Shown: positions 30,594 through 48,228, counted from the first letter of the stretch. The stretch is 64,000 nt of DNA from an uncultured Fibrobacter sp. (GCA_946186895.1 CAMHOW010000005.1:1-64000); one strand, 5' to 3'. Translations and numbers: made by a program. Notes: generated from the sequence alone by a model not told the origin.

Positions 30594-31361
30594 ATGAAAA
30601 CCGAAGATCGCGCAACACCGTTATTTACCGCTACCGCTTTTGTAGCTATTTCTGCTGCTTTGTTTTTCCTTTCAGGCTGCTCCGCCGACTCAAGCATCGC
30701 CGGGGCTTCGGAGGAAGAGTCCATTGTAGGTGCCGAGGCTGTGAATCAGGGAACAGTTCTTGCCAGGGGGCAGGTTTCGTCGGAAACAGTGGTGTTTGGG
30801 GAGGTCACCGACCCACGCGACGGTCAGAAGTACCGGACCGTCAAGATTGGGAAGAACACCTGGTTTGCCGAGAACCTGAATTACGAGACAGCCAATAGCT
30901 GGTGCTACAATGATGAAGAGTCCAACTGCGATGTGTATGGACGGCTTTATACCCATGCCGATGCGGCGAATGCCTGCCCCGAAGGCTGGGCTCTGCCCAC
31001 CATGATTCAATATATGGAACTGTATATGAACACGGCGAATTCTGACGGATTCAAGACAAATGCGTCTATGCTTATTGCGACCGGGTCTAGATGGGGTTCT
31101 CCTTTTGAGGGTGGTGAAAAATACGAGTTCCGCGGCAAGGATTCCTTCGGTTTCTCGATTATTGCCGCCGGAAGAAGGACTAGCGACGGGAATTTTGAGC
31201 AAATCGACGCCTCGGCCTATTTGTGGACGTTGACGGCATCGTCTAGGGGTGGGTATGTTGCGCAGAATTTCGTTACCGCATCGCCCAAGGACGCGGCGGT
31301 AGAGGTGAGTTACATTGTCCGGACCGACGCGGCCTTGTCTGTGCGGTGCATCAAGCGCTAG
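30594..31361 (+). CDS. FISUMP-domain lipoprotein
   Basis: ALFFLSGC lipobox; GEVTDPRDGQKYRTVKIGKNTWFAENLNYETANSWCYNDEESNCDVYGRLYTHADAANACPEGWALPT...LSVRCIKR. Confidence 0.9.
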   Translation: MKTEDRATPLFTATAFVAISAALFFLSGCSADSSIAGASEEESIVGAEAVNQGTVLARGQVSSETVVFGEVTDPRDGQKYRTVKIGKNTWFAENLNYETANSWCYNDEESNCDVYGRLYTHADAANACPEGWALPTMIQYMELYMNTANSDGFKTNASMLIATGSRWGSPFEGGEKYEFRGKDSFGFSIIAAGRRTSDGNFEQIDASAYLWTLTASSRGGYVAQNFVTASPKDAAVEVSYIVRTDAALSVRCIKR

Positions 31362-31433: not shown

Positions 31434-31451
31434 CGTAGTCCATGGACAACG
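31434..31451. promoter_or_regulatory. Candidate operator, copy A (upstream of PL11)
   Basis: CGTAGTCCATGGACAACG followed by CTAAAATTTGG; contains perfect GTCCATGGAC palindrome. Confidence 0.5.
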
Positions 31452-31547
31452 CTAAAATTTGGTTTTTTGCCTATTTTGGGAGCCTTGTATATATATTATG
31501 GCTGTCGAGGTCTAGGGATTGATTTTGACAAAAAACGGAATGGGTGT

Positions 31548-34415
31548 ATGAAAAAATTCTGGTGTTTTGGGTTGGCCCTTTGTATGGGCTTTTCTATGGC
31601 TCAGGCAGCGCGGCAGATGGAGTGGCTGAATCGCGGCCTAGTTGCCGTTAAGACGAGCGGGGGTGTGTTCCTCAGCTGGCGCGTTCTCGGAACCGATGGC
31701 GAGGCAACGGGCTTTAATTTGTATCGTGACGGCGAGAAAATCGCAAGTTTTACCGGTACGCAGGCGAGCAACTATACCGACACGAAGGGAACTGCCGCAA
31801 GTAAGTACTCCGTGAAAGCCGTTGTCGGTGGCAAGGAACAGGCAGCAGATGCAGCGGTCTCTGTGTGGAATGACCAGTTTTTGACTGTGAATCTTGACCG
31901 GCCGAATGGCGGTAGCGACTATACCTATAGCCCCAACGATATTGCGGTAGGCGATGTGGATGGTGACGGTGAATTTGAGCTGATTCTCAAGTGGGATCCG
32001 AGTAATTCCAAAGATAATTCGCAGAAGGGCAAGACCGGCAATGTGATCATTGATTGCTACAAGATGAACGGCAAGAAACTATGGCGCATTGACCTTGGTG
32101 TGAACATTCGTGCGGGGGCTCATTATACGCAGATGCTCGTTGGCGACTATGATAGCGATGGTAGGGCGGAATTTGCCGTGAAGACGGCTCCCGGCACAAA
32201 AGATGGTAGCGGTAGTTACCTGTCGCTCGGTTCGGCGAAGGGTGCCGACCATAGCAAGGATTATAGAAACTCCAACGGATACATTCTCTCGGGACCTGAG
32301 TGGCTCACGATTTTCAACGGCGAGACCGGCAAGGAAATGGCGACGGTGGATTATAACCCCGGACGCGGCACGGTCAAGAGCTGGGGCGATAGTTACGGCA
32401 ACCGCGTGGATCGATTCCTGGCGACAAATGCCTACCTTGACGGAAAAAAGCCGAGCATGGTGTTTCAGCGTGGTTACTACACCCGCATGGCGATTACCGC
32501 TTACGATTGGGATGGAAAGTCGCTTACGCAGCGTTGGTACTACAACGCAGCTACAAGCGGTCAGGAATGCTATGGACAGGGCAATCACAACGTTTCGGCG
32601 GGCGATGTAGATGGCGACGGCTTTGACGAAATCATCGAAGGGAGCTGTGCCATTGACCACGATGGCAAATTCATGTACCGCACGGGCAAGGGCCACGGCG
32701 ATGCTATGCACCTGAGCGACCTGGACCCCGATAATGCAGGTCTTGAAGTTTGGCAGGTCCATGAAGAAAAACCCTATGGTTACGATTTGCACGATGCCCG
32801 CACCGGCAAGTTGCTTTTTAGCGAGACCAGCTCCGGCGACAACGGCCGCGGAGTTGCGGGCGATGTAGATTCAAACAGCCGCGGGCACGAACTTTGGTCT
32901 GCAGCCAACTGGAACACCTATACGGCGAAGGGTGCTATCTGGAAGGCGGATAAGCGGCCTGCCTATAACTTCCGCATTTACTGGGATGGCGACCTTCTTG
33001 ATGAGCTTTTAGACAATACGACCATTAGCAAGTGGGACCACGCCAAGCTGCAGAGCAGTACGATTTTCCAGATGCAGGGCAACAGTTGCAACACCACCAA
33101 GGCAACGCCGAACTTTAGCGGAGACATTCTTGGCGATTGGCGAGAAGAAGTCATTCTGCACGATGGGGCGTCTAAGCTTTACATCTACACGACCACGATT
33201 CCGACAGAACATCGCATGTATACGCTGGCCCATGACCCAGTTTATCGCCTGGGAATGAGCTGGCAGAACACCGCCTACAACCAGCCGCCGCATCTAGGAT
33301 TTTGGCTGCACGGCAACAAGGGCAAGTTCCCGGTGCCCGATATTACGCTTATTGGCGACAACACGCCGAAGGCGGCCGCAATCGTGAAACAGGGGGCAGG
33401 AAGTTCTAGCCAGTTTATCGTGAAGGGTGATGCCATTGTGCCGTTTACTTTTGCGATTCAATATGCCGATGGAGCTACGGTAGAAGGCCTTCCGGCGGGA
33501 GTAACGGCGGCTTGGAACGCTTCCACAAGTTCGCTCTATTTTAGCGGGACTCCGACTGTAGAAGGTGAATTTACCTATACGATTACGACCAAGGGTGGAA
33601 ATGTCGACTTTGGCGAGGCTACTCGCAGCGGGACTATCACTATCTTGAGCGTTGTAGAATCCGGTCCGGCACCGGTGCCGATTTTGAGTGACATCGAGGC
33701 TGCTGTTCCGACCGATGCGAAGGGCATGGCAAATAATAACCATGAAAACTTCCGTGGCGAAGGATTCTACGATTTTGAAAATAGCCTAGATAGTTATGGT
33801 ATTTACCACCTTGTTTCGCCAAAGGCCTACGACAATGCCACGATGGTGCTGCGCTATGCTCACGGAAAGACGGATACGCGCCGCATTATGGTGAAGATGA
33901 ATGACGACCTGATTGGTTCGCTGACCTTCGCGCCGACTGCGGATTGGGATACGTGGGATTCCGTAATGATTTCTGTAAACTTGAAGGCGGGCCTCAACAT
34001 TCTTTATTTGAAGTCCCTGGAAGAAAACGGAGCTCCGAATTTAGACCAATTGGCTTTCGACGTACCGGGAGTGAGCCTTTATGAGAGCGAATCTCAGCTT
34101 TCGGGAATAGACTCTCTGCAAGTAAAGGCAGGCGAGTCTGAAAGTGCGGCACTCAATTCAAATCTCCGCCTCGCTAATGGCGTATATGTGAACTTTAGTG
34201 AAAATACGATTGTCACACACCATGGCGGCAATGTAGAATTGGGCTTTTTTGACATGAAGGGCCACTGTATAGCGCGAATTGCCAAGAACGTTCCGGCAGG
34301 GAATACTGACCTGGGCGAACAGGTAAAAAATCTACCTGGAGGAATTTACGTGGTTCAGGTAAAGTTCAACGGCAAGAAACTTAAAAACGTGATGCGAACA
34401 AAAATCAACAGGTAA
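31548..34415 (+). CDS. PL11-type rhamnogalacturonan lyase with C-terminal Ig-like/carbohydrate-binding regions and sorting-tail-like end
   Basis: Signal peptide MKKFWCFGLALCMGFSMAQA; RQMEWLNRGLVAVKTSGGVFLSWRVLGTDGEATGFNLYRDG; DVDGDGEFELILKWDPSNSKDNSQKGKTGNVIIDCYKMNGKKLWRIDLGVNIRAGAHYTQM; GDWREEVILHDG; HLGFWLHGNKGKFPVP. Confidence 0.9.
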   Translation: MKKFWCFGLALCMGFSMAQAARQMEWLNRGLVAVKTSGGVFLSWRVLGTDGEATGFNLYRDGEKIASFTGTQASNYTDTKGTAASKYSVKAVVGGKEQAADAAVSVWNDQFLTVNLDRPNGGSDYTYSPNDIAVGDVDGDGEFELILKWDPSNSKDNSQKGKTGNVIIDCYKMNGKKLWRIDLGVNIRAGAHYTQMLVGDYDSDGRAEFAVKTAPGTKDGSGSYLSLGSAKGADHSKDYRNSNGYILSGPEWLTIFNGETGKEMATVDYNPGRGTVKSWGDSYGNRVDRFLATNAYLDGKKPSMVFQRGYYTRMAITAYDWDGKSLTQRWYYNAATSGQECYGQGNHNVSAGDVDGDGFDEIIEGSCAIDHDGKFMYRTGKGHGDAMHLSDLDPDNAGLEVWQVHEEKPYGYDLHDARTGKLLFSETSSGDNGRGVAGDVDSNSRGHELWSAANWNTYTAKGAIWKADKRPAYNFRIYWDGDLLDELLDNTTISKWDHAKLQSSTIFQMQGNSCNTTKATPNFSGDILGDWREEVILHDGASKLYIYTTTIPTEHRMYTLAHDPVYRLGMSWQNTAYNQPPHLGFWLHGNKGKFPVPDITLIGDNTPKAAAIVKQGAGSSSQFIVKGDAIVPFTFAIQYADGATVEGLPAGVTAAWNASTSSLYFSGTPTVEGEFTYTITTKGGNVDFGEATRSGTITILSVVESGPAPVPILSDIEAAVPTDAKGMANNNHENFRGEGFYDFENSLDSYGIYHLVSPKAYDNATMVLRYAHGKTDTRRIMVKMNDDLIGSLTFAPTADWDTWDSVMISVNLKAGLNILYLKSLEENGAPNLDQLAFDVPGVSLYESESQLSGIDSLQVKAGESESAALNSNLRLANGVYVNFSENTIVTHHGGNVELGFFDMKGHCIARIAKNVPAGNTDLGEQVKNLPGGIYVVQVKFNGKKLKNVMRTKINR

Positions 34416-34497
34416 AAATTAATCTCTCAAATCCCCAACCGAAGCACCCCGGCGAATGTCGGAGTGTCTTTTATTGTAGATAAATGAAATTTTTGCT

Positions 34498-34515
34498 GGT
34501 TGTCTAGGGACAACC
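34498..34515. promoter_or_regulatory. Candidate operator, copy C (upstream of PL1 gene)
   Basis: GGTTGTC-TAGG-GACAACC followed by CTTAATTTGC. Confidence 0.5.
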
Positions 34516-34581
34516 CTTAATTTGCAAAACCCTACCCTTGTTGTGTAAACGAGGGTAATTTTTATGGTATAGGAGATTATT

Positions 34582-37500
34582 ATGGGATGCTTTAGACATA
34601 AAATGTTGACATGGGCGTTTGCCCTTGGACTTGTGGGGGTGACCCATATTTATGCGGGTTCCCCGATTGTCAAGGTGGACTTCGACATGAGCGGGCGCAA
34701 TTCGAGCGAAGTTACGGAGCCCAACTATATTCCGTGGGTGGTTTCGGGTGTCACTTCCAAGGACACGACCCTTTCGGGCGTAAAAATCGGAATCGCCGGT
34801 AGCAGAAATATTAAGGCCACCTGGTACAAGGCGGGCGTGCAGTCCCCGAGCTACGCAAAACTGGTTTGCGACGGCGTGATTATTGAAAACGGCGGTAACA
34901 TTACGCTCACTTTCTCGAATCTTGCCGCTGGCTCGCACAGTTTGTTGCTTTATCTTAACGATGTCAGCGGTACGGCGACATCGAACAGCATCGATGTCTA
35001 TGTGAACAACTCCAAGCAAACTTCCGTGAAGCCGACGAACCGTGCGCTTTCGACATCCGAGGCCGCTACGGCGTATGTGACGTTCTCTGTAAGCGGGACT
35101 TCCGCTTCTACGGCAATCAAGTTGAATCTGAGCACGGCGACTTTGAATGCGTTTGAACTCAATGTTCCGAATGTGGCGGCACAGGCTTCCAGCCCTTCAC
35201 CAACGGATTTGGATTACCACACCCCACACGACAATGGCGCTCTCACGCTGACCTGGACGGCGGCAAGCGGCGCGACCAAGCACCGCGTATTCTTTGGCAC
35301 GGATTCTACCTCGGTCGCAAAAGCAACAACTAGCACGACAGCGATTTACAAGGGCGAACAGTCCGGCACGACCTACAAGGTTTCGGGAACGACTCCGCTT
35401 TCGACTTATTACTGGCGCGTAGATGAAGTGAACGGTTCTACGGTGACTCAGGGCAATGTGTGGAGCTTTAAGCCGGGACGTCTTGCATTTGAAGGTGCCG
35501 AAGGCTATGGCCGTAACGCTCTCGGTGGTCGTGGTGGCAAGGTGGTTTATGTGACAAACCTGAACGACGATGGCGCAGGCAGTTTGCGCGAGGCGTGCAC
35601 GGCGGATATTGGCCCGCGTACCATTATATTCAAGGTGGCGGGCATGATTCAGCTCAAGTCCCGCTTGGTGTGTAATCATAGCCAAGTGACGATTGCAGGA
35701 CAGTCTGCGCCGGGTAAAGGAATTACCATTAAGAGTGCTCCCATCGGTTTTACCGGCAACGACATGATTATCCGTTTTATGCGAGTGCGTCTGGGATACG
35801 GTCAAACTTATGACGGAATGGGACTCACCGGTGGCGACCACAGCATTCTGGATCACGCATCTATCAGCTGGACCATTGACGAGGCGTTCTCTAGCCGCGG
35901 CGGCAAGAATATCACTCTTCAACGCACCTTGATTTCGGAAGCCTTAAACGTGGCCGACCACCAGAATTATCCGTCGGGTACGGGGCATGGATACGCGGCG
36001 ACCATCGGTGGTGACATCGGAAGTTTCCACCACAACTTGCTGGCCCATAACGAGGGCCGTAACTGGAGTATGGGCGGCGGCCTTGATGGTAATGGTTATT
36101 ATGCCGGTCGCTTGGATATTTTCAACAATGTGGTCTATAACTGGGAAGGCCGCGTCACGGATGGCGGCGCTCATGAGGTGAACTTTGTCGGCAATTACTA
36201 CAAGGCGGGAGCTGCATCGCGCATCTTGGATTATGTGCTGAGTGCGGATCTCGAAGGAACTGGCAATGGTTCGCAGGCGTATTACTTCCACAACAATGTC
36301 TTGCAACTTAAGGATGGCTCGTTTAAGTGCGATGGTACGAATGACGGTAGCACATCGAATGGCGGGTCCGGAAAAGCAGACGCCTGCAAACGCTACACCC
36401 TGAGTAATGGACAGAATCTCAATTGGAATGTGTGGAACAGCAAGCCCTTCTTTGAATCTTATGCGACCATCCAGGGCGCAAAGGCTGCCTATAAGGACGT
36501 GTTGAGCGATGTGGGCCAGCGTATGCCAATTTTAGACAACCACGATCAGCGCATGATTCGCGAAACCAAGAACGGAACCTATAGCGCCACGGGTTCCAAG
36601 AGCGGACTCCCCGGAATCCCTGACCGTGAAACTGATGTCACCGATACCGCGAATATCAAGGGCTGGGAACCGTATCCGAGTGCGAGCTGGGCAGACGATT
36701 ACGATAGCGACCTTGACGGTCTCCCGGACTGGTGGGAAAATATGTATGGCTATAATCCGAAATCCAAGAGTGGCGACTTTAGCGATGCGAATAAGGACCG
36801 CCTGGGTGATGGTTGGACAGAACTGGAACGCTACCTGGAGTGGATGGCTCGCGCCCACTATACTTTTGCAAAGGGTGAAACCCAGGTGATTGACCTTTCG
36901 CAGTTTACTGCAGGCTATGACAACGGAACTTACACGGTTTCCGCTCCGACAGGCGTGACTGCAACTGTGAACGGCTCCAAGATGACGGTCAAGCTTGCCG
37001 ATAATTTCGGTGGCGTTGGCTACATCAAGTTTACGCTTAAGGACAAGGAAGGCGACTCCTTCGGCCGTTATATCGGTGTGACCCAGCAACTTGCCGCAAG
37101 TGCTACTACTCCCACAAGTTCTTCTTCCTCGGAAGCTGTTACGCCGGCATCTAGCAGCTCCGTGACTCCGGCTTCTGCTGCAGGAAGTGCCGACGGTGTT
37201 TACCAGGCCGAAGATGGAACGCTTGCAAATGACGCAATCTTTGAAGACCGCAACACAGGATTTGCTGGAACGGGCTATGTGAACTTTGCTGCAACCGCAG
37301 GCAGTTCCACGAAGATTCCTGTAACAGTAAAGGCTGCTGGTGAATACACCGTGACACTCACCTACGCCCTTGGCAAAGACGAAACACGTAAACTTTGCAT
37401 TAGGGTGGGTGGTGAAGAAGCCGTACAGATGGAATTTGCCTCAACAGGAACATGGACTGACTGGAAAACGGTCGACATTACACTCAACCTTGTTGCCGGT

Positions 37501-37848
37501 GTAAACGAAATTGAGTTTGCTACCATTGATGGCGATGGGCCGAATTTGGATCAGATTAAGCTCACCCTGTCGGAAAATACATCATTTGCCGTGCCGAGTT
37601 CTGTAGCAAAATTCCATTCTAGCGTTTCGAACAATATCGTGTTCATGACCGGAGTTCCGCAGAATGCAAAAATTACCGTGACTGATTTTAGTGGCAAAAA
37701 CCTGATGACACAAAAATCTATCGTGACGACAAACGGCACGGCATCGGTAAGCCTCCAAGATTACGGCTGTGGCATTTACCTAGTGAATATTCGCAGTATT
37801 TATGGTAGTGCCAAGTTTAACAAGACCATCAAGGTTATGCGTAGATAA
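34582..37848 (+). CDS. PL1-type pectate lyase with fibronectin-like region, CBM6/35-like module and sorting-tail-like end
   Basis: AEGYGRNALGGRGGKVVYVTNLNDDGAGSLREACTADIGPRTIIFKVAGMI; ISWTIDEAFSSRGGKNITLQRTLISEAL; Ser linker; VYQAEDGTLANDAIFEDRNTGFAGTGYVNFAA...NLDQIKL. Confidence 0.88.
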   Translation: MGCFRHKMLTWAFALGLVGVTHIYAGSPIVKVDFDMSGRNSSEVTEPNYIPWVVSGVTSKDTTLSGVKIGIAGSRNIKATWYKAGVQSPSYAKLVCDGVIIENGGNITLTFSNLAAGSHSLLLYLNDVSGTATSNSIDVYVNNSKQTSVKPTNRALSTSEAATAYVTFSVSGTSASTAIKLNLSTATLNAFELNVPNVAAQASSPSPTDLDYHTPHDNGALTLTWTAASGATKHRVFFGTDSTSVAKATTSTTAIYKGEQSGTTYKVSGTTPLSTYYWRVDEVNGSTVTQGNVWSFKPGRLAFEGAEGYGRNALGGRGGKVVYVTNLNDDGAGSLREACTADIGPRTIIFKVAGMIQLKSRLVCNHSQVTIAGQSAPGKGITIKSAPIGFTGNDMIIRFMRVRLGYGQTYDGMGLTGGDHSILDHASISWTIDEAFSSRGGKNITLQRTLISEALNVADHQNYPSGTGHGYAATIGGDIGSFHHNLLAHNEGRNWSMGGGLDGNGYYAGRLDIFNNVVYNWEGRVTDGGAHEVNFVGNYYKAGAASRILDYVLSADLEGTGNGSQAYYFHNNVLQLKDGSFKCDGTNDGSTSNGGSGKADACKRYTLSNGQNLNWNVWNSKPFFESYATIQGAKAAYKDVLSDVGQRMPILDNHDQRMIRETKNGTYSATGSKSGLPGIPDRETDVTDTANIKGWEPYPSASWADDYDSDLDGLPDWWENMYGYNPKSKSGDFSDANKDRLGDGWTELERYLEWMARAHYTFAKGETQVIDLSQFTAGYDNGTYTVSAPTGVTATVNGSKMTVKLADNFGGVGYIKFTLKDKEGDSFGRYIGVTQQLAASATTPTSSSSSEAVTPASSSSVTPASAAGSADGVYQAEDGTLANDAIFEDRNTGFAGTGYVNFAATAGSSTKIPVTVKAAGEYTVTLTYALGKDETRKLCIRVGGEEAVQMEFASTGTWTDWKTVDITLNLVAGVNEIEFATIDGDGPNLDQIKLTLSENTSFAVPSSVAKFHSSVSNNIVFMTGVPQNAKITVTDFSGKNLMTQKSIVTTNGTASVSLQDYGCGIYLVNIRSIYGSAKFNKTIKVMRR

Positions 37849-37883
37849 GTCGCAAATGGAACCTTATACACTTAACAAAAAAG

Positions 37884-37907
37884 GCCTAGGCTCGAATGAG
37901 TCTAGGC
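37884..37907. terminator. Bidirectional terminator between convergent genes
   Basis: GCCTAGGCTC-GAAT-GAGTCTAGGC with one wobble, A-run before and T-run after. Confidence 0.7.
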
Positions 37908-37922
37908 TTTTATCGAAAGCGT

Positions 37923-38774
37923 CTATTCTTTTCCGCCTACGGGGAAGAGGGCGAACTGTAGTTGGAAAACCTTGTCGCTGGATTCATCTTCTTCGGCGAT
38001 GAGGGCGATCTCTTTGCGGAAGGCGTTGATGCGCTCTACGATGCGCTCGTAGCCCTCTTGGCTTATGCCGAGGGTGAGCCCTGAAATGTGACGCGTGCCC
38101 GGAGGGTCGCGGTCAATAGAATCGGCGGCGAGCTTTAGGCATTGCTGATGGTATCCGCGGAGCGCGAGTCTCGAAGTGCGGTCGCCGGTAGTGATGGCAT
38201 TTTCGGTAAGCGTGTAGTTGCCGCCCTTGTCTTTTTTAATGAGCAGGCAGTCTTCGAGAAGCTTTACGGACTTTTTTGCTTCTTCGGCGGTGATGCGGGG
38301 GTGTACCCTTTTTGCGAGTGTCTCGTAGTCACCGTCAAAACCGAACATGCCGATAAGGCTGCGTATGGTGAGGTGCCTCCAGTCTGAATACACCATGTAT
38401 TGCGTGTGCCCGAGCAGGTGCTGCTTTTCGGCAAATCGCACGACCTTGAGTACGGCTTGCATCTCGTTAAATGCAGCGTTTCTCTCTTCGGTGGTTTCGG
38501 CCTGGTTGAACTTGACGAGGGCTATAAAGAATTCCGTCTCGTGCTTGCCGAGTCGAAGCCCGCTTGCAACTTTAGGAATGCTCTGGCTCGAAAGGTTCTT
38601 GTCGCCGTTCATGACGCGGCTGATGAAATCTTTCGCCTTGAAACCGATCTTGTCAGAAAATACGCGGAGAGAGAAGGCCGGGTTGGCCTCCTTTTTTGCG
38701 TTATAGTAATCTTTCAGAAATTCCCGGTAATCCAGGTATTCGAAGATTTTTTTTGTCGGTTTCGGTGCTCCCAT
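37923..38774 (-). CDS. TIGR02147-type protein (DUF4423-like, Fibrobacter paralogous family); N-terminal HTH-like region
   Basis: KIFEYLDYREFLKDYYNAKKEANPAFSLRVFSDKIGFKAKDFISRVMNGDKNLSSQSIPKVASGLRLGKHETEFFIALVKFNQAET. Confidence 0.82.
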   Translation of the reverse strand: MGAPKPTKKIFEYLDYREFLKDYYNAKKEANPAFSLRVFSDKIGFKAKDFISRVMNGDKNLSSQSIPKVASGLRLGKHETEFFIALVKFNQAETTEERNAAFNEMQAVLKVVRFAEKQHLLGHTQYMVYSDWRHLTIRSLIGMFGFDGDYETLAKRVHPRITAEEAKKSVKLLEDCLLIKKDKGGNYTLTENAITTGDRTSRLALRGYHQQCLKLAADSIDRDPPGTRHISGLTLGISQEGYERIVERINAFRKEIALIAEEDESSDKVFQLQFALFPVGGKE

Positions 38775-38826
38775 GCTCTAAATGTAAGAAAAAAGCCCCT
38801 TTGCGGGATTAGGGAATGTATAATAG

Positions 38827-38844
38827 CGTTGTCCAGAAACAACG
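38827..38844. promoter_or_regulatory. Candidate operator, copy B, in TIGR02147/PL1 divergent intergenic region
   Basis: CGTTGTCCAGAAACAACG followed by CTAAATTGCGG; the full inverted repeat TAGCGTTGT-CCAGAA-ACAACGCTA has 9-bp perfect arms (38824-38847); TATAAT at 38819-38824. Confidence 0.6.
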
Positions 38845-38959
38845 CTAAATTGCGGTCAGTTGAAAAATATGTGGCAAAAATACCCGTTTTGAGGTAGATT
38901 TTGTGTAGTTCCGGCAAAAATGGCGCAAATGGGTGCGTTGTCCGGGAAAAGGGTGTATT

Positions 38960-41518
38960 ATGTTGAAAAGGATGTTTGGGACCGTGGCGTGCGGAGTGTG
39001 GGTTGCCGCTGCGGCGATAAGCCCCTCCGAGGTGGTGTCGCTTCCGGGCGACGCCGCTTACGGTGGTGGTGACAAGGTTGGTTCGCAACTGATTGCTGCG
39101 ACTTACAATGGGGGAGAAGGTCCCGGTATTTGGATTGTGGCCGATGGCGGTTACCGGCTTTATCACAATGGGGCTTTGCTTGCCGAAGATAACCAGGCGG
39201 GCCGAGTGCGTTTTATTCCGATGACCTTCTTGCCGGGTGAAAATGCAATTTCGGTGGTGGGCGTGAACGGTCAGGGTGCCCCCGGCGTGATGGTACAGAT
39301 TGACGAATTGCACGAATCTTACTATTCCGGTAGTGGCTGGAAATCAAAGCCTGTGGTAAGCAACAATTCCTGGAAGAATAAGGGCCGCGACCTTTCCAAA
39401 TGGGGTGGGGCTACGACGCTCAGTTATGCGAATACCAAGATGCCCAGCGGTGGGGTTTTGAATGGTTTTGCTCCAAATACGCAGGCCAAGTGGATCTGGA
39501 CGAGTGCGGAGACGGACCCGATGGCGGTTTTGCTTTTCACGTTCTACGTGAAGGCCGAAGGCTTCGGCGCTGCTACGACGGGCGGCGACGCGGGCAAGAT
39601 TGTGGTGGCGACCGACTCGGCGAGCATCCGCAAGAATCTACAGAGCAACGACGCTGTGACAATCCTCGTGCCCGAAGGCACCTACGACTTCAGGCGCTTC
39701 AGGAATGCTGTCACCGAAGCCAAAAGCAAGGGCCGCACCTGGTGCAAAACGACATGTACCGAGAAGAATCGCGTGACGGGCAAGACCAATACGTTCTACC
39801 GTATTACTTTCAAGGCGAATAGCTGTAGCGATTTGACCGAGGCAGGTGTGCAAATTGTACAGGAAAGCGAAAACCTGCAGCAATGGGAAAACTGGATTAC
39901 CACCAAGCCCAACAAGAGCCTCGTGGGTATGGGTCGCGGCGCGAACCTGCGAGGAGCCGCTATTGCCGTGCGAAGCAATGAAGGTTCTTACAACCACATT
40001 TACCGTAACCTTGCCATTTATGACGTGAACCCGCACCTGATTGAAGGCGGTGATGGCCTCGAGACGGTGGGTACGGCGTCGAAACATGTGAAGGGATTCT
40101 GGGCCGACCATATCAGCTATAAGTGGATCAGCGACGGCATGGATATGGAATTCGTGGACGACGCGACCATCAGTTACCTGGATTTCGACGGCGCGAACGA
40201 TTTCAACTGCTGGGGAACGGACCCCTACATGGCGCTGGTGGAGGATGCCCATCTGACTTACGCCAACAACTACTGGCACAATACATACGGCCGCGTGCCG
40301 AAGGTGACCGGCGAAAGCGACGGTTCGCAGGTCCATTTGTACAACCAGTATGTCGATTACAACCGCTTCTTTATCGCGGGTGCGGATGGGCACAGTGCAA
40401 ACGCGAAGGCTTACGTGCGCTACGAGAACAGCTATATCGATAACGGCCAGGGCTATTTGGCCGAATGGGGCGACAACGGCTACGTTTACTTTAGTGGAGT
40501 CACGTTCGGGAGCGGTACCAAGCAACAGCACCGCTACAACGGTACGGTGACGCAGGGTGTTCCGCAGGCAGAAACGTTTACCCCGAGCTACAGTTTTGAA
40601 AAACGTAATGTTGCGAGCCTCCCGACGGAAATGAAGACCCTTACAGGTGTGGGTGGCCGTTACGGCAAGATGCCTACTTACAATCAGGCTTTCGGACTGA
40701 GCAACAAGGCGGCGACGGTCTCGATGACCGCCCCTGCGTCGGGTGCGAAGTTCAGTGCCGGCGATGCGGTTACATTGAAGGCCGACGCGAAGGATAACGA
40801 TGGTTCCGTGAAGAGCGTGGCGTTCTATGTGGGCAATACTTTGGTCGGCTCTGCGACAAGCGCTCCCTACCAGGTCAACGCGAGTGGGCTTGAGCCGGGC
40901 ATGTATTCCGCAGTTGCAGTCGTGACGGACAATTCGGGTCTTTCGCAGATGTCCGCGTTCGTGACCTTCTCTGTCGAAGGGACTGTCTATCCTGAGGTTG
41001 TAAAGTGCGGTTGGGGTTCCAGCAGCCAGAGCATCAATCTGGGCGAACCGATTGTAGATTTCTGCTACACCTGGAGCGGTGCCGAGACGGTCGTGCCCGA
41101 GGGCTTCCCGACGGGCGTTACGACCAGCATCGATAAAACAAACCGCAAGATATCCATCAGCGGCACTCCTGCCGAAGCGGGCGAGTTCGCCTTCAAGGTG
41201 TGGGCGACCAACAATGACTCCACATTTATTAAAAGCGGTCGCATCGTGGTGGTGGACCCGAACGCTCCCGAATCGTCTTCGAGTGTTGAACCGGAATCAT
41301 CTTCGGGCGAAATCGTGGAATCGAGCAGTGGAACGACCCTGTTTGCGCAACGTATGAACTGGGCGACCGAGGCGGAAGCGGACTACTACCGTATATTCGA
41401 CATGCAGGGTAGGCCGCTCTATTCCGGCGACAGAATGCCCTCGCATATGCCTGCCATCCGCGTCATCGTCGTAGAATATTCTCAAAAGGGTACGGTAATG
41501 CGTCGTTATGTACAATAA
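38960..41518 (+). CDS. PL1-type pectate lyase with Ig-like domains and sorting-tail-like end
   Basis: Signal-like MLKRMFGTVACGVWVAAAAIS; TKPNKSLVGMGRGANLRGAAIAVRSNEGSYNHIYRNLAIYDVNPHLIEGGDGLE; WADHISYKWISDGMDMEFVDDATISYLDFDG; YANNYWHNTYGRVPKV. Confidence 0.87.
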   Translation: MLKRMFGTVACGVWVAAAAISPSEVVSLPGDAAYGGGDKVGSQLIAATYNGGEGPGIWIVADGGYRLYHNGALLAEDNQAGRVRFIPMTFLPGENAISVVGVNGQGAPGVMVQIDELHESYYSGSGWKSKPVVSNNSWKNKGRDLSKWGGATTLSYANTKMPSGGVLNGFAPNTQAKWIWTSAETDPMAVLLFTFYVKAEGFGAATTGGDAGKIVVATDSASIRKNLQSNDAVTILVPEGTYDFRRFRNAVTEAKSKGRTWCKTTCTEKNRVTGKTNTFYRITFKANSCSDLTEAGVQIVQESENLQQWENWITTKPNKSLVGMGRGANLRGAAIAVRSNEGSYNHIYRNLAIYDVNPHLIEGGDGLETVGTASKHVKGFWADHISYKWISDGMDMEFVDDATISYLDFDGANDFNCWGTDPYMALVEDAHLTYANNYWHNTYGRVPKVTGESDGSQVHLYNQYVDYNRFFIAGADGHSANAKAYVRYENSYIDNGQGYLAEWGDNGYVYFSGVTFGSGTKQQHRYNGTVTQGVPQAETFTPSYSFEKRNVASLPTEMKTLTGVGGRYGKMPTYNQAFGLSNKAATVSMTAPASGAKFSAGDAVTLKADAKDNDGSVKSVAFYVGNTLVGSATSAPYQVNASGLEPGMYSAVAVVTDNSGLSQMSAFVTFSVEGTVYPEVVKCGWGSSSQSINLGEPIVDFCYTWSGAETVVPEGFPTGVTTSIDKTNRKISISGTPAEAGEFAFKVWATNNDSTFIKSGRIVVVDPNAPESSSSVEPESSSGEIVESSSGTTLFAQRMNWATEAEADYYRIFDMQGRPLYSGDRMPSHMPAIRVIVVEYSQKGTVMRRYVQ

Positions 41519-43238: not shown

Positions 43239-44601
43239 GCTTATAAGAACTGTATTTGGCTTTAATCCATTCAGGGCTACGTGCCCTCGTTTCTACGATT
43301 ACATTGCTGATTGCACCGTTCCAGGTCTCAGTCTCGATTTCGTTACCGCCTATGCGGAAAGGTACACTGCGGTTCAGCTTGTTGGGAACGAATTCCATTG
43401 AGAATTCGGTGCCGTTGGTACCCGTAATCGGGACAGGCTCGCCGTTCACGTACATGCTCACCAGGTGGTTCCTAGAAACGAGTGTCAAGAAAATCCATTC
43501 ACCGACAGGAATAGAGGCCGAATCCCCGAAGTACACTGCTTCGGGTACGCCGGGCATGCTCTTCATCACAGCAAAAGACTTACTGTTCATCTCGTAGTGC
43601 CATTGGAATCGCGATGTGGAATCGCTCCAGTAAGCGCGCTGACAGAAAAGCACCTGGTGTTCATCGTTGGGGCCGTTCCATTTGGTCCACAGCGAAAGCG
43701 TAAAATCGCCATTGGTTGGGTTGAGCGTGTCAAGGTCAATATACTGGCCCTTGTCTAGCATCACGGCGCGGCCACCAATACCTTCGATGTATTTTACGTT
43801 ATCAGCCAGCTTACCGTCGTGATTGAATACCTCTTCATCGCCATTCATTTCGATGTTCACCGTAGTCCATCCTGTGTCAGTGTTGAGAACTTGATCGGTA
43901 TTGTAAAAAGTGAACCCGTATTCATCGCCAAGCAGGTCAAGGTCTGGGCTCCATAGGAATCCATTATGGTTTTCTAACTGCGGAATGATTAGCGTGTCGC
44001 CTTTATCCTGTATTGAGAATTGGATATGGCCTAGCACTGAATCACTTTCGGAATAGATCAGCTCCGCATGCATTCCGGGCGGGATAGAGTCAAAGCTAAA
44101 CGAGCCGTCTTCTTTCACGTTGGCCACGAGATGTGTTCCGCTAATACGGACTTTGCCTGATGTTGCTCCGGAAATGCTCCCGCGGGCAACTTTGCGCGCA
44201 CCGATGTGAATTTCGGTATCAACGTTTTCTGACGCAAGAGCGAGGCCTGAAAGTGAATCTGATTTTGCGAACAAATAGAATCCGGAGATCCCTTCTACGC
44301 TGCTCTGAGCAAAATCTGCAATAATGGGCTTATGAGGTATCTTGAATTCGAACTGACCCTTTGAATCGGCAATAGCTTCGCTAGAATCAACAATGGCAAC
44401 GCCGTTGTCCCTATACAGGGCGAGTCGTGCGGCAGGTGCTATTTTACCTTGCATATTGACAACCGTTCCGCGGACTCGTATCGTGTCGGTTTCTTGGGCG
44501 ACTGTATTCCCGATATCGGTCACGCCGCCGGCGACATCTTCGCTGTTAGAGCAGGCAAGCAAAATAAGGGGAGTGGTAAGTGCTAATATCAATCGGTTCA
44601 T
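43231..44601 (-). CDS. Lipoprotein with LamG/ConA-like domain
   Basis: LILLAC lipobox; GDFTLSLWTKWNGPNDEHQVLFCQ...GEWIFLTLVSRNHLVSMYVNGEPV; overlaps downstream end of previous gene tail-to-tail. Confidence 0.8.
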   Translation of the reverse strand: MNRLILALTTPLILLACSNSEDVAGGVTDIGNTVAQETDTIRVRGTVVNMQGKIAPAARLALYRDNGVAIVDSSEAIADSKGQFEFKIPHKPIIADFAQSSVEGISGFYLFAKSDSLSGLALASENVDTEIHIGARKVARGSISGATSGKVRISGTHLVANVKEDGSFSFDSIPPGMHAELIYSESDSVLGHIQFSIQDKGDTLIIPQLENHNGFLWSPDLDLLGDEYGFTFYNTDQVLNTDTGWTTVNIEMNGDEEVFNHDGKLADNVKYIEGIGGRAVMLDKGQYIDLDTLNPTNGDFTLSLWTKWNGPNDEHQVLFCQRAYWSDSTSRFQWHYEMNSKSFAVMKSMPGVPEAVYFGDSASIPVGEWIFLTLVSRNHLVSMYVNGEPVPITGTNGTEFSMEFVPNKLNRSVPFRIGGNEIETETWNGAISNVIVETRARSPEWIKAKYSSYKPI

Positions 44602-45443
44602 CTTTCAGTCTCCTTCCCAATCTTCTTGCTCATCGGGAACGCCACAAGCATCATCTCGTAGACGCGCTCTACATCTAGATCGTTTGCTGCCCGCGCGATA
44701 ATCTTTTTGCGGGCCTCTTCTAGTACCTCGACGGCGTACCTATAAGAATTTTCGCTCATTGCAAGCGTGGTGAAGGCGGCAAAGCGTTCATCCTTAGGCA
44801 TCGATTCTACCGCACCGATGGCGTGCTGTATGTATTCGTGGCGAATCTTTCGGAGGGCGATTGGCGGGATTTCTGCGGCATCGAGCATTTGGGATGTGTG
44901 CTTATAGCGCTTGCCCACCTGTTTTAAGAGCCCCCATTCCAGCAGATTCTTTACCGCTTCGCGGGCTTCTTCCGTGGTTATTTGCGGAGTAAGCTGGCGG
45001 GCCAGTACGCGAAAGTCGCCGTCCCAGTTTGATTCTACCGCAAGTTCGCGTACTATCGGGTAGTACCATTTGCTAAAGTACGCCTGTTCGCGCGTTGTTA
45101 CGTGTGTAAATTCAATCTGCTTGCGGATTTGTAAAATCTGTTTCCAAGCCTGATCGCGTTCGTCAACTTGCCTTGCCTGGTTGTACTGCACCAGCGCCTC
45201 AAAATACGCCTTTTGCAGGGGCTCAAAATCCATGGCCTTTGAAATCTTCTCGATGGATTTGGGCGTGAGATTGAATCGCCCACGGATTACGTTTAGGCAG
45301 TACGAAGAGCTACTGAACCCTGCCTTCGCAGCGAAGAAACGATGCGAAAATACGGCGCGCATTTTCTTCTGCTCGTCGAAATAATCCTGCATAAACTTGC
45401 GGAAATCATCGTAGTCAAATAGATGTTCCAGGGCGATACTCAT
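44598..45443 (-). CDS. TIGR02147-type protein, translationally coupled to the LamG lipoprotein
   Basis: LFDYDDFRKFMQDYFDEQKKMRAVFSHRFFAAKAGFSSSSYCLNVIRGRFNLTPKSIEKISKAMDFEPLQKAYFEALVQYNQARQ; 4-nt ATGA overlap with downstream gene. Confidence 0.83.
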   Translation of the reverse strand: MSIALEHLFDYDDFRKFMQDYFDEQKKMRAVFSHRFFAAKAGFSSSSYCLNVIRGRFNLTPKSIEKISKAMDFEPLQKAYFEALVQYNQARQVDERDQAWKQILQIRKQIEFTHVTTREQAYFSKWYYPIVRELAVESNWDGDFRVLARQLTPQITTEEAREAVKNLLEWGLLKQVGKRYKHTSQMLDAAEIPPIALRKIRHEYIQHAIGAVESMPKDERFAAFTTLAMSENSYRYAVEVLEEARKKIIARAANDLDVERVYEMMLVAFPMSKKIGKETER

Positions 45444-45660
45444 GCCCTTTAAGATATAAAATTTTTACACAAAAATCAATATTTTGATTGAATTTAATGT
45501 GAAATTATTATTTGAAGAAGTTAATTCTTACACGAATTTTGGAAAAAAAAGCCTTTTTTACACGCTTTCAACACGGAATCTTTTCTGCCGGAATCTCTAA
45601 ACCTAGGATTTTGGGGAGCGAAAAACTATTTCTAGCACTGCACAAATTAGGAGTGTGTTT

Positions 45661-48228
45661 ATGCAAAAAAAGTGTATGGGATGGATTGCCGCGGCAGCAC
45701 TCGCGGCGGGAATGGCAGGGGTGGCCACAGCAGCAGAGGGTGATGCCTACACATGGCCCGGATATCGTTCTGACTTGGATTACGACACCAAGTCAAATAT
45801 AGGCGAAATTAAACCGCCGACACAGTTTAACAACAATTGTTCGGGTGTCACTGGCAAAAAGGCCGGCAAGTGGTGGGCATTTTATTGGGGTGCCGATCGC
45901 GATAGCCGCATTACCGATGTGACCATTGATTCTATTCTCAAAAAGTACGATACCGATTTTGAGTACCTCTACGATGTGATGGGTTGGGCCCCTGACAAGC
46001 AGGCCCAAGAAGGCAAGTACAGCGCCGTTTATTACTATGGCTCGGGTACGTGTGCCGGTGGTGCGAAGGACGATACCACGGGTGGTTGGCAGACATGGGT
46101 GGCGGGCTACACGGCGGTGGCGGCTTCGTTCTATCCGCTCTACAGTTTTAACACGAGTTGCCCCTACCGCGATCGTGTGGCGCAGATGGATGCGATGATC
46201 CATGAGGGCATCCACTCGATGACCAATGGATACCCTGGTGCAAAGGATGCTCATTGGTTCCAGGAAGCGGGTAACACTTGGATTCAGCAGGATATGTTCA
46301 GTCATCGTGAGGGCGTTTACAATGGCATGGGCTTCTTGAATGCAGCAACAGTCATTGCTCCCTTTATGCCGATTGAAACTTATTCGGGCTGGCTGATTGA
46401 TGGTACTTTCGGAGGCCCCGGCGGCGGTGCCGATGATGGTGGCGTAACCGGAAAGAATCAACGCTACCTCTTGGGCGGCTCGCAATACAGCAACATTTTC
46501 CCGACGTTTATCGGGACATGGATTGGCACGGGTGCGGTTCGTTGGATTTATGGAAATGCTTACGGCAAAACTAAATATCTGCTTGAAACTTACGGCCTTG
46601 ACAAAGGCCTTGGCGATGCGGGTGTGCGTAGGCTCATTACCGAATTTCGTGCTAGGCTTGCGATGCTTGACATGAAAAAATGGTCCAATGAAATCAAGAA
46701 CCTGCTGAATAACAATTTCGGAAGTCAAACCTATTGGGAGCAGGATTATTGGGATAATAAGAAATACAGCTACACTTGGACCATGACACCCTACCAGACT
46801 GTTACCGAAAATGGTGGGTATCTGGTACCGGATCAGGAAACGACTCCGGGGTGGTCTGGTTCGAATGTGGTGCCATTGAAGGTGCAGAACGGTGCAAGTA
46901 AAGTGACGGTGAACTTTTATCCGAATGGAACAAATTCCAACAACAAGAATATGAACTTCTTGCTGTGCTACCGTGCTACCGATGGTACGCCTGTTTATAG
47001 CGAACCCATTACGGGCGAAGGTTCCGTAACGCTCCGCCTAGACAAGACCCCTTCTTCTACAAACGGAACGCAGATGGTCTTTGCTGTGATTGTGAATACC
47101 GATTATCAATACACTGGCAACACGGGCATACGCAAGTTGCATTATGATTATAAGTTGAAACTCGGCACAGGTATTAGCGGAGCAGGGGCTGCGAATGTCA
47201 AGTATTACAATGACTTTAAGTTAGATTACGACTGGCCGGAAATCGGGGAGGCTCCGGTAAGCTCGAGCAGTGTGAATCAGTCTTCCTCAAGTAGCGTTGT
47301 GGCCTCTTCCAGTAGTATTATGGCGTCCTCTAGTAGTGAGAAACCCGCAAGTTCGAGCAGTGTTTCTTCGTCTAGCAGTAAGACGCCCGCAAGTTCGAGT
47401 GGTGTTGCGCTGACGACATATAACATCGCGGTAACGCTCCCCATTGATGATAACTATGCGACTGTTTCCATACAATTCAATGCCGATGAAGTGGCGACGA
47501 AGCTCGGACTTACTGTGGCAACGCTTTCGCAGGCAACCTTCTTTGCGCAAGAACCGAACGGAAATACAGTCACGCAGTCCACTGCAAATGCTCCCGGACA
47601 CTGGTTCGGAAAAGAGGGCAATGTCGTAGAGTGGGGTGAGAATGCCTACATGTTCAGCGAGGCGGATTTAGCCAACGGAACGCTCGCTGTCGGACACTAC
47701 CCGAACCGTGTTTCTAACGGTGACAAGTACAGCTTTACGCAGGGGCTTTCATACAATGGGAAAACAGTTCTCTTTAAGGTGACTGTGTCCATTACGAACG
47801 AGCAAGAAAATGGACAGTTTGATATACAGGAAGGTGGCCTGGGTAATGGTCAGGGAAATGTGCCGGAAATCGTGCAAGGTGGCGAACAGAAGAATGGACA
47901 GAGTAATGAGCAAGGTAACAGCCAGATTAACAACGCGCCAAAAACAACCTCAGCACTGATGTATGGCCTGAAAGGTATTCCATCACACATCAGCGTCGCA
48001 TACCGTCGTGGGCAAATTCAAGTTCAGTATACGCTCCCACGGAACGATAATGTGAAGATGAGTTTGTTTACCGGATTTGGTGCGCTTATTGACCAGAAGA
48101 TTTCGGGAGTGCAGCATGCAGGAACGTACATGCATACTTTCAACTTGGGCAGGTTGCCAGCCGGTACGTATATCGTGAAGGTCTCGACTGGTAGCTACCA
48201 CGAGGCCCGCCCGATAAACATTCGATAG
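45661..48228 (+). CDS. Secreted putative zinc metallopeptidase-like protein (DUF6055-like) with Ser-rich linker and sorting-tail-like end
   Basis: Signal peptide MQKKCMGWIAAAALAAGMAGVATA; HEGIH motif (46201-46215) followed by WFQEAGNTW; poly-Ser linker; C-terminal LFTGFGALIDQKI...LPAGTYIVKVSTG. Confidence 0.65.
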   Translation: MQKKCMGWIAAAALAAGMAGVATAAEGDAYTWPGYRSDLDYDTKSNIGEIKPPTQFNNNCSGVTGKKAGKWWAFYWGADRDSRITDVTIDSILKKYDTDFEYLYDVMGWAPDKQAQEGKYSAVYYYGSGTCAGGAKDDTTGGWQTWVAGYTAVAASFYPLYSFNTSCPYRDRVAQMDAMIHEGIHSMTNGYPGAKDAHWFQEAGNTWIQQDMFSHREGVYNGMGFLNAATVIAPFMPIETYSGWLIDGTFGGPGGGADDGGVTGKNQRYLLGGSQYSNIFPTFIGTWIGTGAVRWIYGNAYGKTKYLLETYGLDKGLGDAGVRRLITEFRARLAMLDMKKWSNEIKNLLNNNFGSQTYWEQDYWDNKKYSYTWTMTPYQTVTENGGYLVPDQETTPGWSGSNVVPLKVQNGASKVTVNFYPNGTNSNNKNMNFLLCYRATDGTPVYSEPITGEGSVTLRLDKTPSSTNGTQMVFAVIVNTDYQYTGNTGIRKLHYDYKLKLGTGISGAGAANVKYYNDFKLDYDWPEIGEAPVSSSSVNQSSSSSVVASSSSIMASSSSEKPASSSSVSSSSSKTPASSSGVALTTYNIAVTLPIDDNYATVSIQFNADEVATKLGLTVATLSQATFFAQEPNGNTVTQSTANAPGHWFGKEGNVVEWGENAYMFSEADLANGTLAVGHYPNRVSNGDKYSFTQGLSYNGKTVLFKVTVSITNEQENGQFDIQEGGLGNGQGNVPEIVQGGEQKNGQSNEQGNSQINNAPKTTSALMYGLKGIPSHISVAYRRGQIQVQYTLPRNDNVKMSLFTGFGALIDQKISGVQHAGTYMHTFNLGRLPAGTYIVKVSTGSYHEARPINIR

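Follow-up and report, generated by a model that had tools for sequence, protein, structure and literature searches.

Three palindromes in a stretch of DNA of 64,000 nucleotides from an uncultured Fibrobacter sp. (the window) are very probably binding sites of a regulator encoded beside them, a conclusion reached without binding data. Specifically, we suggest, with a probability of roughly 0.78, that the TIGR02147/DUF4423 protein encoded at 37923-38774 is autoregulated and activates a pectin regulon of this gut bacterium in the class I manner; its binding, its activating role and its ligand are inferred. What can be read at the level of sequence are the conserved sites, their co-occurrence with the regulator, a fixed and helically phased spacing to a TANNTT element, and the identity of the target genes.

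Palindromes and pectin-lyase-type genes in the window

The proposed operators and the genes around them are:

31434..31451, + strand: proposed operator A, CGTAGTCCATGGACAACG; located 96 nt 5' of the PL11 start (ATG 31548); 27.1 bits
31548..34415, + strand: PL11 rhamnogalacturonan lyase gene with a CBM6-like module (Pfam RGL11_C, E 2e-202)
34498..34515, + strand: proposed operator C, GGTTGTCTAGGGACAACC; located 66 nt 5' of the PL1 start (ATG 34582); 23.3 bits
34582..37848, + strand: pectate-lyase (PL1-type) gene with a CBM35/CBM6-like module (Pfam; similar to the solved pectate lyase PDB 9buj, E 4e-40)
37923..38774, - strand: TIGR02147/DUF4423 regulator gene, proposed reader of the operators (NCBIfam, Pfam DUF4423, structure model)
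38827..38844, no strand assigned: proposed operator B, CGTTGTCCAGAAACAACG; between the regulator gene (53 nt) and the PL1-like gene (115 nt; ATG 38960); 24.0 bits
38960..41518, + strand: PL1-like (pectin lyase-like) gene with an Ig domain (Pfam Big_7; weak match to pectin lyase B, PDB 1qcx, E 2e-10)

A sequence-only reading of this DNA had proposed A, B, and C as an operator of a pectin-responsive regulon. Inspection of the sequence places all three where that reading had put them, the distances to the start codons fall within the 65–120 nt that it gave, and its labels PL11, PL1, and PL1 agree with the matches listed above, the last of them weakly. The tail CTWAAWTTKS that it described survives only in part: on the side facing the promoter, positions +3 to +5 remain A/T, and the rest is not conserved across the regulon. 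The regulator gene, the promoter element at a fixed distance, and the autoregulation were absent from it.

With up to three mismatches allowed, CGTTGTCCAGGGACAACG matches the window only at 31434 (on both strands), 34498, and 38827, compared with 0.02 matches expected from shuffles. In a matrix built from the sites found, sites A–C score 23–27 bits and the next-best position of the window 4.4 bits. The 16-nt core GTWGTYYNNRRACWAC occurs four times in the whole assembly, that is, at A, B, and C and at G000:C51:11495. This fourth core site (L067 3996) is on another contig, upstream of a second PL11 gene. The best of the weak three-mismatch matches in the assembly (L004, 17 bits) was set aside as it lies inside a 342-aa reading frame; the other two score 9.7 bits.

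Two further features were noted. A half-site, CGTTGTCC, is present at 38936-38943 (+), 16 nt before ATG 38960, and its second arm is absent. Just 5' of site A lies a gene (30594-31361, +) for a protein with a FISUMP (Fib_succ_major) domain, which is lineage-typical, secreted, and of unknown function.

A TIGR02147/DUF4423 regulator beside site B

The regulator gene is flanked by the PL1 gene (34582-37848) on one side and site B on the other, and is divergent from the PL1-like gene starting at 38960. It encodes a 283-aa protein that is a full-length member of TIGR02147 (residues 8-279, 304.6 bits versus a cut-off of 50) and also matches PF14394 (DUF4423; 116.8 bits, cut-off 30). Neither family model has an assigned function, and our literature search returned no function or operator described for TIGR02147/DUF4423 and only one line on DUF4423 in a proteome table.

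Among 61 genomes searched, we identified 23 orthologs in the genus that are 80-98% identical to the regulator and separated by a clear gap from the next paralog at 45% identity. All 23 have CGTTGT-N6-ACAACG upstream, one of them with a single edge change, and this palindrome, to which operator B corresponds, is nearly always 53 nt 5' of the start codon of the regulator gene. Thus, a conserved site before the regulator's own gene, which we took as the criterion for autoregulation, is found for 23/23 genus orthologs and also for 3/3 of the distant homologs described below.

The structural model of the regulator has a mean pLDDT of 84 and a pTM of 0.56. Its N-terminal helical bundle resembles the DNA-binding domains of SinR and C.BclI (Foldseek probability 0.93-0.97), but with E-values near 1 this resemblance is not significant; none of the Foldseek E-values for the model is significant (best 0.07), and the regulator sequence had no significant match among solved structures. 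We consider the assignment of an N-terminal helix-turn-helix, which rests on the predicted fold, likely but unproven. The C-terminal half of the model contains a helix-helix-strand-strand stretch that would fit a winged helix. XRE dimers commonly bind palindromes, and the regulator would be similar to XRE-type regulators such as SinR and C.BclI if its predicted N-terminal helix-turn-helix is correct; unlike them, it continues into a long DUF4423 part at the C-terminus, one segment of which looks like a winged helix, and it shares no significant sequence or whole-fold match with them.

Sites and regulator co-occur in the genus

The core GTWGTYYNNRRACWAC is present on average 5.25 times per genome in the 24 genomes with the regulator (window genome included) and 0.5 times in the 12 without it (Mann-Whitney p 2e-6). 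For a reversed pattern used as control, the corresponding values are 2.3 (n=24) and 1.8 (n=12). PL11 genes are still present in 10 of the 12 regulator-less genomes of the genus; in nine of these ten, the PL11 genes examined have no upstream site (best score at most 5.3 bits versus a minimum of 14.4 bits for sites), and G021 is the one regulator-less genome with a site upstream of PL11.

In the genomes without an ortholog, 4 of the 6 residual sites adjoin target-type genes. To account for these residual sites, one has to invoke gaps in the assemblies, which are partly incomplete, foreign contigs that they may contain, or another reader; this last is not excluded. Among the genomes lacking a detected ortholog, L277, L278, and L281 have sites before target-type genes; one neighbour there shares 99% identity with a gene from a different genome, which leaves foreign contigs or recent transfer possible.

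Genes next to the sites

The fetched regions surround sites and the control regions surround control sites, so that like is compared with like. In this comparison, 110 of 121 sites were intergenic or at gene starts versus 4 of 40 control sites. Based on Pfam and PDB matches of representatives, the neighbours of the sites include PL1-, PL9-, PL10-, and PL11-type lyases and CE15 esterases as well as Cthe_2159-type proteins and secreted proteins with DUF4859, DUF6055, CotH, or LamG domains. At least one PL, CE15, Cthe_2159-type, or accessory secreted neighbour was found at 77 of the 83 tabulated sites that do not precede the regulator gene, and a PL-type gene flanks 77 of all 107 tabulated sites, as expected of a pectin regulon, in which the majority of targets should be enzymes that act on pectin. 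Housekeeping neighbours (isocitrate dehydrogenase, RelA/SpoT, BrkB-like, and YceD) are mostly divergent partners of target-type genes.

Most of the computational checks proposed in the sequence-only reading were made and turned out in its favour; in the genus, the motif is neither random nor unlinked to carbohydrate genes, and it is conserved in orthologous intergenic regions. The idea of a regulon operator is well supported by a motif that is intergenic, present at orthologous places, and strongly linked to pectin-lyase-type genes genus-wide. As for pectin as the signal, only the target genes point there, and for the pectin response itself there are no expression data.

A -10-like element at a fixed distance

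Downstream of the palindromes of the window we located four putative -10 elements:

31492..31497, + strand: putative -10 TATATT, 41 nt downstream of the site A core (sequence and spacing rule)
34556..34561, + strand: putative -10 TAATTT, 41 nt downstream of the site C core (sequence and spacing rule)
38781..38786, - strand: putative -10 TACATT for the regulator gene, 41 nt downstream of the site B core
38895..38900, + strand: putative -10 TAGATT, 51 nt downstream of the site B core towards the PL1-like gene (second spacing class)

The same arrangement is found across the regulon. A -10-like TANNTT follows the palindrome core at 40-42 nt in 42 of 57 non-redundant target promoters and at 50-52 nt in 11 of the 57; the top position has 24 matches, and circular shifts never gave more than 8. 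In the aligned regulator promoters, TANATT is present at 40-42 nt in 24 of 24. No conserved TTGACA-like -35 was seen in promoters aligned on the palindrome.

If TANNTT is the -10 box, the palindrome would be centred near -61 or -71 relative to starts that are themselves inferred. That TANNTT serves as -10 in Fibrobacter is an assumption; our literature search turned up no mapped starts and, for Fibrobacter regulons and promoters in general, nothing useful. Class I activators such as CRP have sites at -61.5 and -71.5. The palindromes resemble those of CRP-type class I activators: they would be centred near -61, 5' of the -35 region, and in a second group of promoters they are one helical turn further away. 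They differ in that the protein family is unrelated and in that starts, activation, and polymerase contact are only inferred. The position expected for class I activation (about -61 or whole helical turns upstream) is matched only by way of the inferred -10.

Distant homologs and a second TIGR02147 gene

Homologs of the regulator with 42-43% identity are encoded by three genomes of another family of the class. Upstream of these homologs we found the same arms with one extra central base, GTTGTC-N5-GACAAC, and sites with this N5 centre number 10, 6, and 11 in the three genomes compared with 0 or 1 in the other 11 genomes searched. TANNTT accompanies 23 of 27 inspected N5-centre sites, on one side or both, at a distance of 40-43 or 50-52 nt; the null gave a mean of 2.4 and a maximum of 8. 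The target genes differ and include those for homoserine dehydrogenase, BSP peptidases, sortilin-like proteins, and LamG/DUF2341 proteins, with many unassigned; L307, L316, L321, and other loci among L306-L324 have N5-centre sites with 41/51-nt spacing before such quite different genes. The target genes thus appear to have been exchanged between Fibrobacter and the other family. Because sites and spacing are kept while targets differ in the other-family genomes, we infer that the regulator, the operator arms, and the spacing are old, the link to pectin being seen only in Fibrobacter.

The window contains a further member of the family:

44601-45443, - strand: second TIGR02147/DUF4423 gene

Its orthologs in the genus have a different conserved upstream motif, TGTGTAAAAAT, near the start codon and often repeated further upstream, which is probably the operator of this second regulator. 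We ruled out the 44601-45443 gene as reader of the palindromes because it is also present where a genome has few sites or none, and because it has this upstream motif of its own. Divergent from it is a gene for a DUF4859-type secreted protein (45655-48228, +) that has no core site upstream. In several other genomes, homologs of this gene have the palindrome about 75 nt upstream; its position in the window beside the second TIGR02147 gene perhaps reflects a change of regulator.

A model for class I activation and its alternatives

In our working model, a dimer of the TIGR02147/DUF4423 protein would bind SGTWGTYY-NN-RRACWACS, possibly using a predicted XRE-like helix-turn-helix in its N-terminal part, with a winged-helix-like part at the C-terminus. 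At the pectin-lyase-type genes and at the regulator's own gene, the bound dimer would sit with its centre near -61 (or -71) relative to the start of transcription and, from this upstream palindrome, would activate RNA polymerase in a class I manner. It is by inference that we have the protein bind directly and as a dimer, activate instead of repress, and respond to a signal derived from pectin, and the transcription starts are inferred as well. We prefer activation because of the helical phasing and because the palindrome is positioned upstream of the -35 region.

The same protein and operator could also work in the opposite direction, with a repressor being released by a pectin fragment. Autoregulated repressors are common among local one-component regulators of sugar genes, and the site is indeed near promoters in both directions; however, the site lies upstream of the -35 region and not over the promoter, no -35 is conserved, and the spacing is constant within a base and alternates by one helical turn. 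Repression is therefore unlikely, but we keep it in consideration. We give even less credence to the idea that some other DNA-binding protein reads the sites and has the TIGR02147 gene simply as one more gene under its control. The number of sites tracks the presence of the ortholog in the genus and does so again in the three other-family genomes with different targets, while the second TIGR02147 gene of the window does not track the sites; what speaks for another reader is that some sites have target-type neighbours in genomes without a detected ortholog.

Two explanations that involve no DNA-binding regulator can be discarded. The perfect arms of site C can fold with -9.3 kcal/mol, as a leader RNA hairpin (riboswitch, attenuator, or terminator) might, but fold z-scores of only -0.6 to -1.9, an Rfam search without a match, and the fact that the palindrome serves genes on both sides all argue against this; moreover, with the inferred -10 downstream, the palindrome would stay untranscribed, and we reject this explanation. 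That the palindromes are a product of chance or unrelated repeats, given that short palindromes do arise randomly, is already refuted by the expectation of 0.02 for the window and by the enrichments at orthologs, in intergenic regions, by gene class, and in spacing.

Relation to known pectin regulons and to the TIGR02147 family

Pectin regulons are known elsewhere from KdgR of Dickeya and relatives and from pectin systems of Bacteroidota. The regulon proposed here is similar to those in that one regulator has several dispersed sites before pectinase genes, but in Fibrobacter the protein family and the operator are different. Fibrobacter succinogenes S85 hydrolyses citrus pectin but hardly uses it for growth (PMC3079729), and the S85 genome paper left the regulation of cellulases unanswered, reporting few recognizable regulators near cellulase genes (PMC3079729). 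The activator model makes the regulation of plant-cell-wall enzymes in Fibrobacter testable by simple binding and expression assays.

To our knowledge, this is the first proposal of an operator, a target set, and a promoter geometry for a TIGR02147/DUF4423 member. It provides a rule for decoding other TIGR02147 members, namely an operator about 41 nt before TANNTT, and a case in which regulator, operator, and spacing were kept while target genes changed. Across the phylum, a single genome can encode about 40 or more TIGR02147 proteins. The broader proposal is that TIGR02147 is a major family of class I activators in which each member has its own operator and at least one architecture (palindrome, 41/51 nt, TANNTT) was kept between Fibrobacter and the other family with targets swapped, governing pectin degradation in Fibrobacter; we would put this at even odds. 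Finally, in four genomes (L283-L286), the gene of the nearest Fibrobacter paralog of the regulator (45% identity) is preceded by one intact arm with an A/T tail, GTAGACAACGATTTTG.
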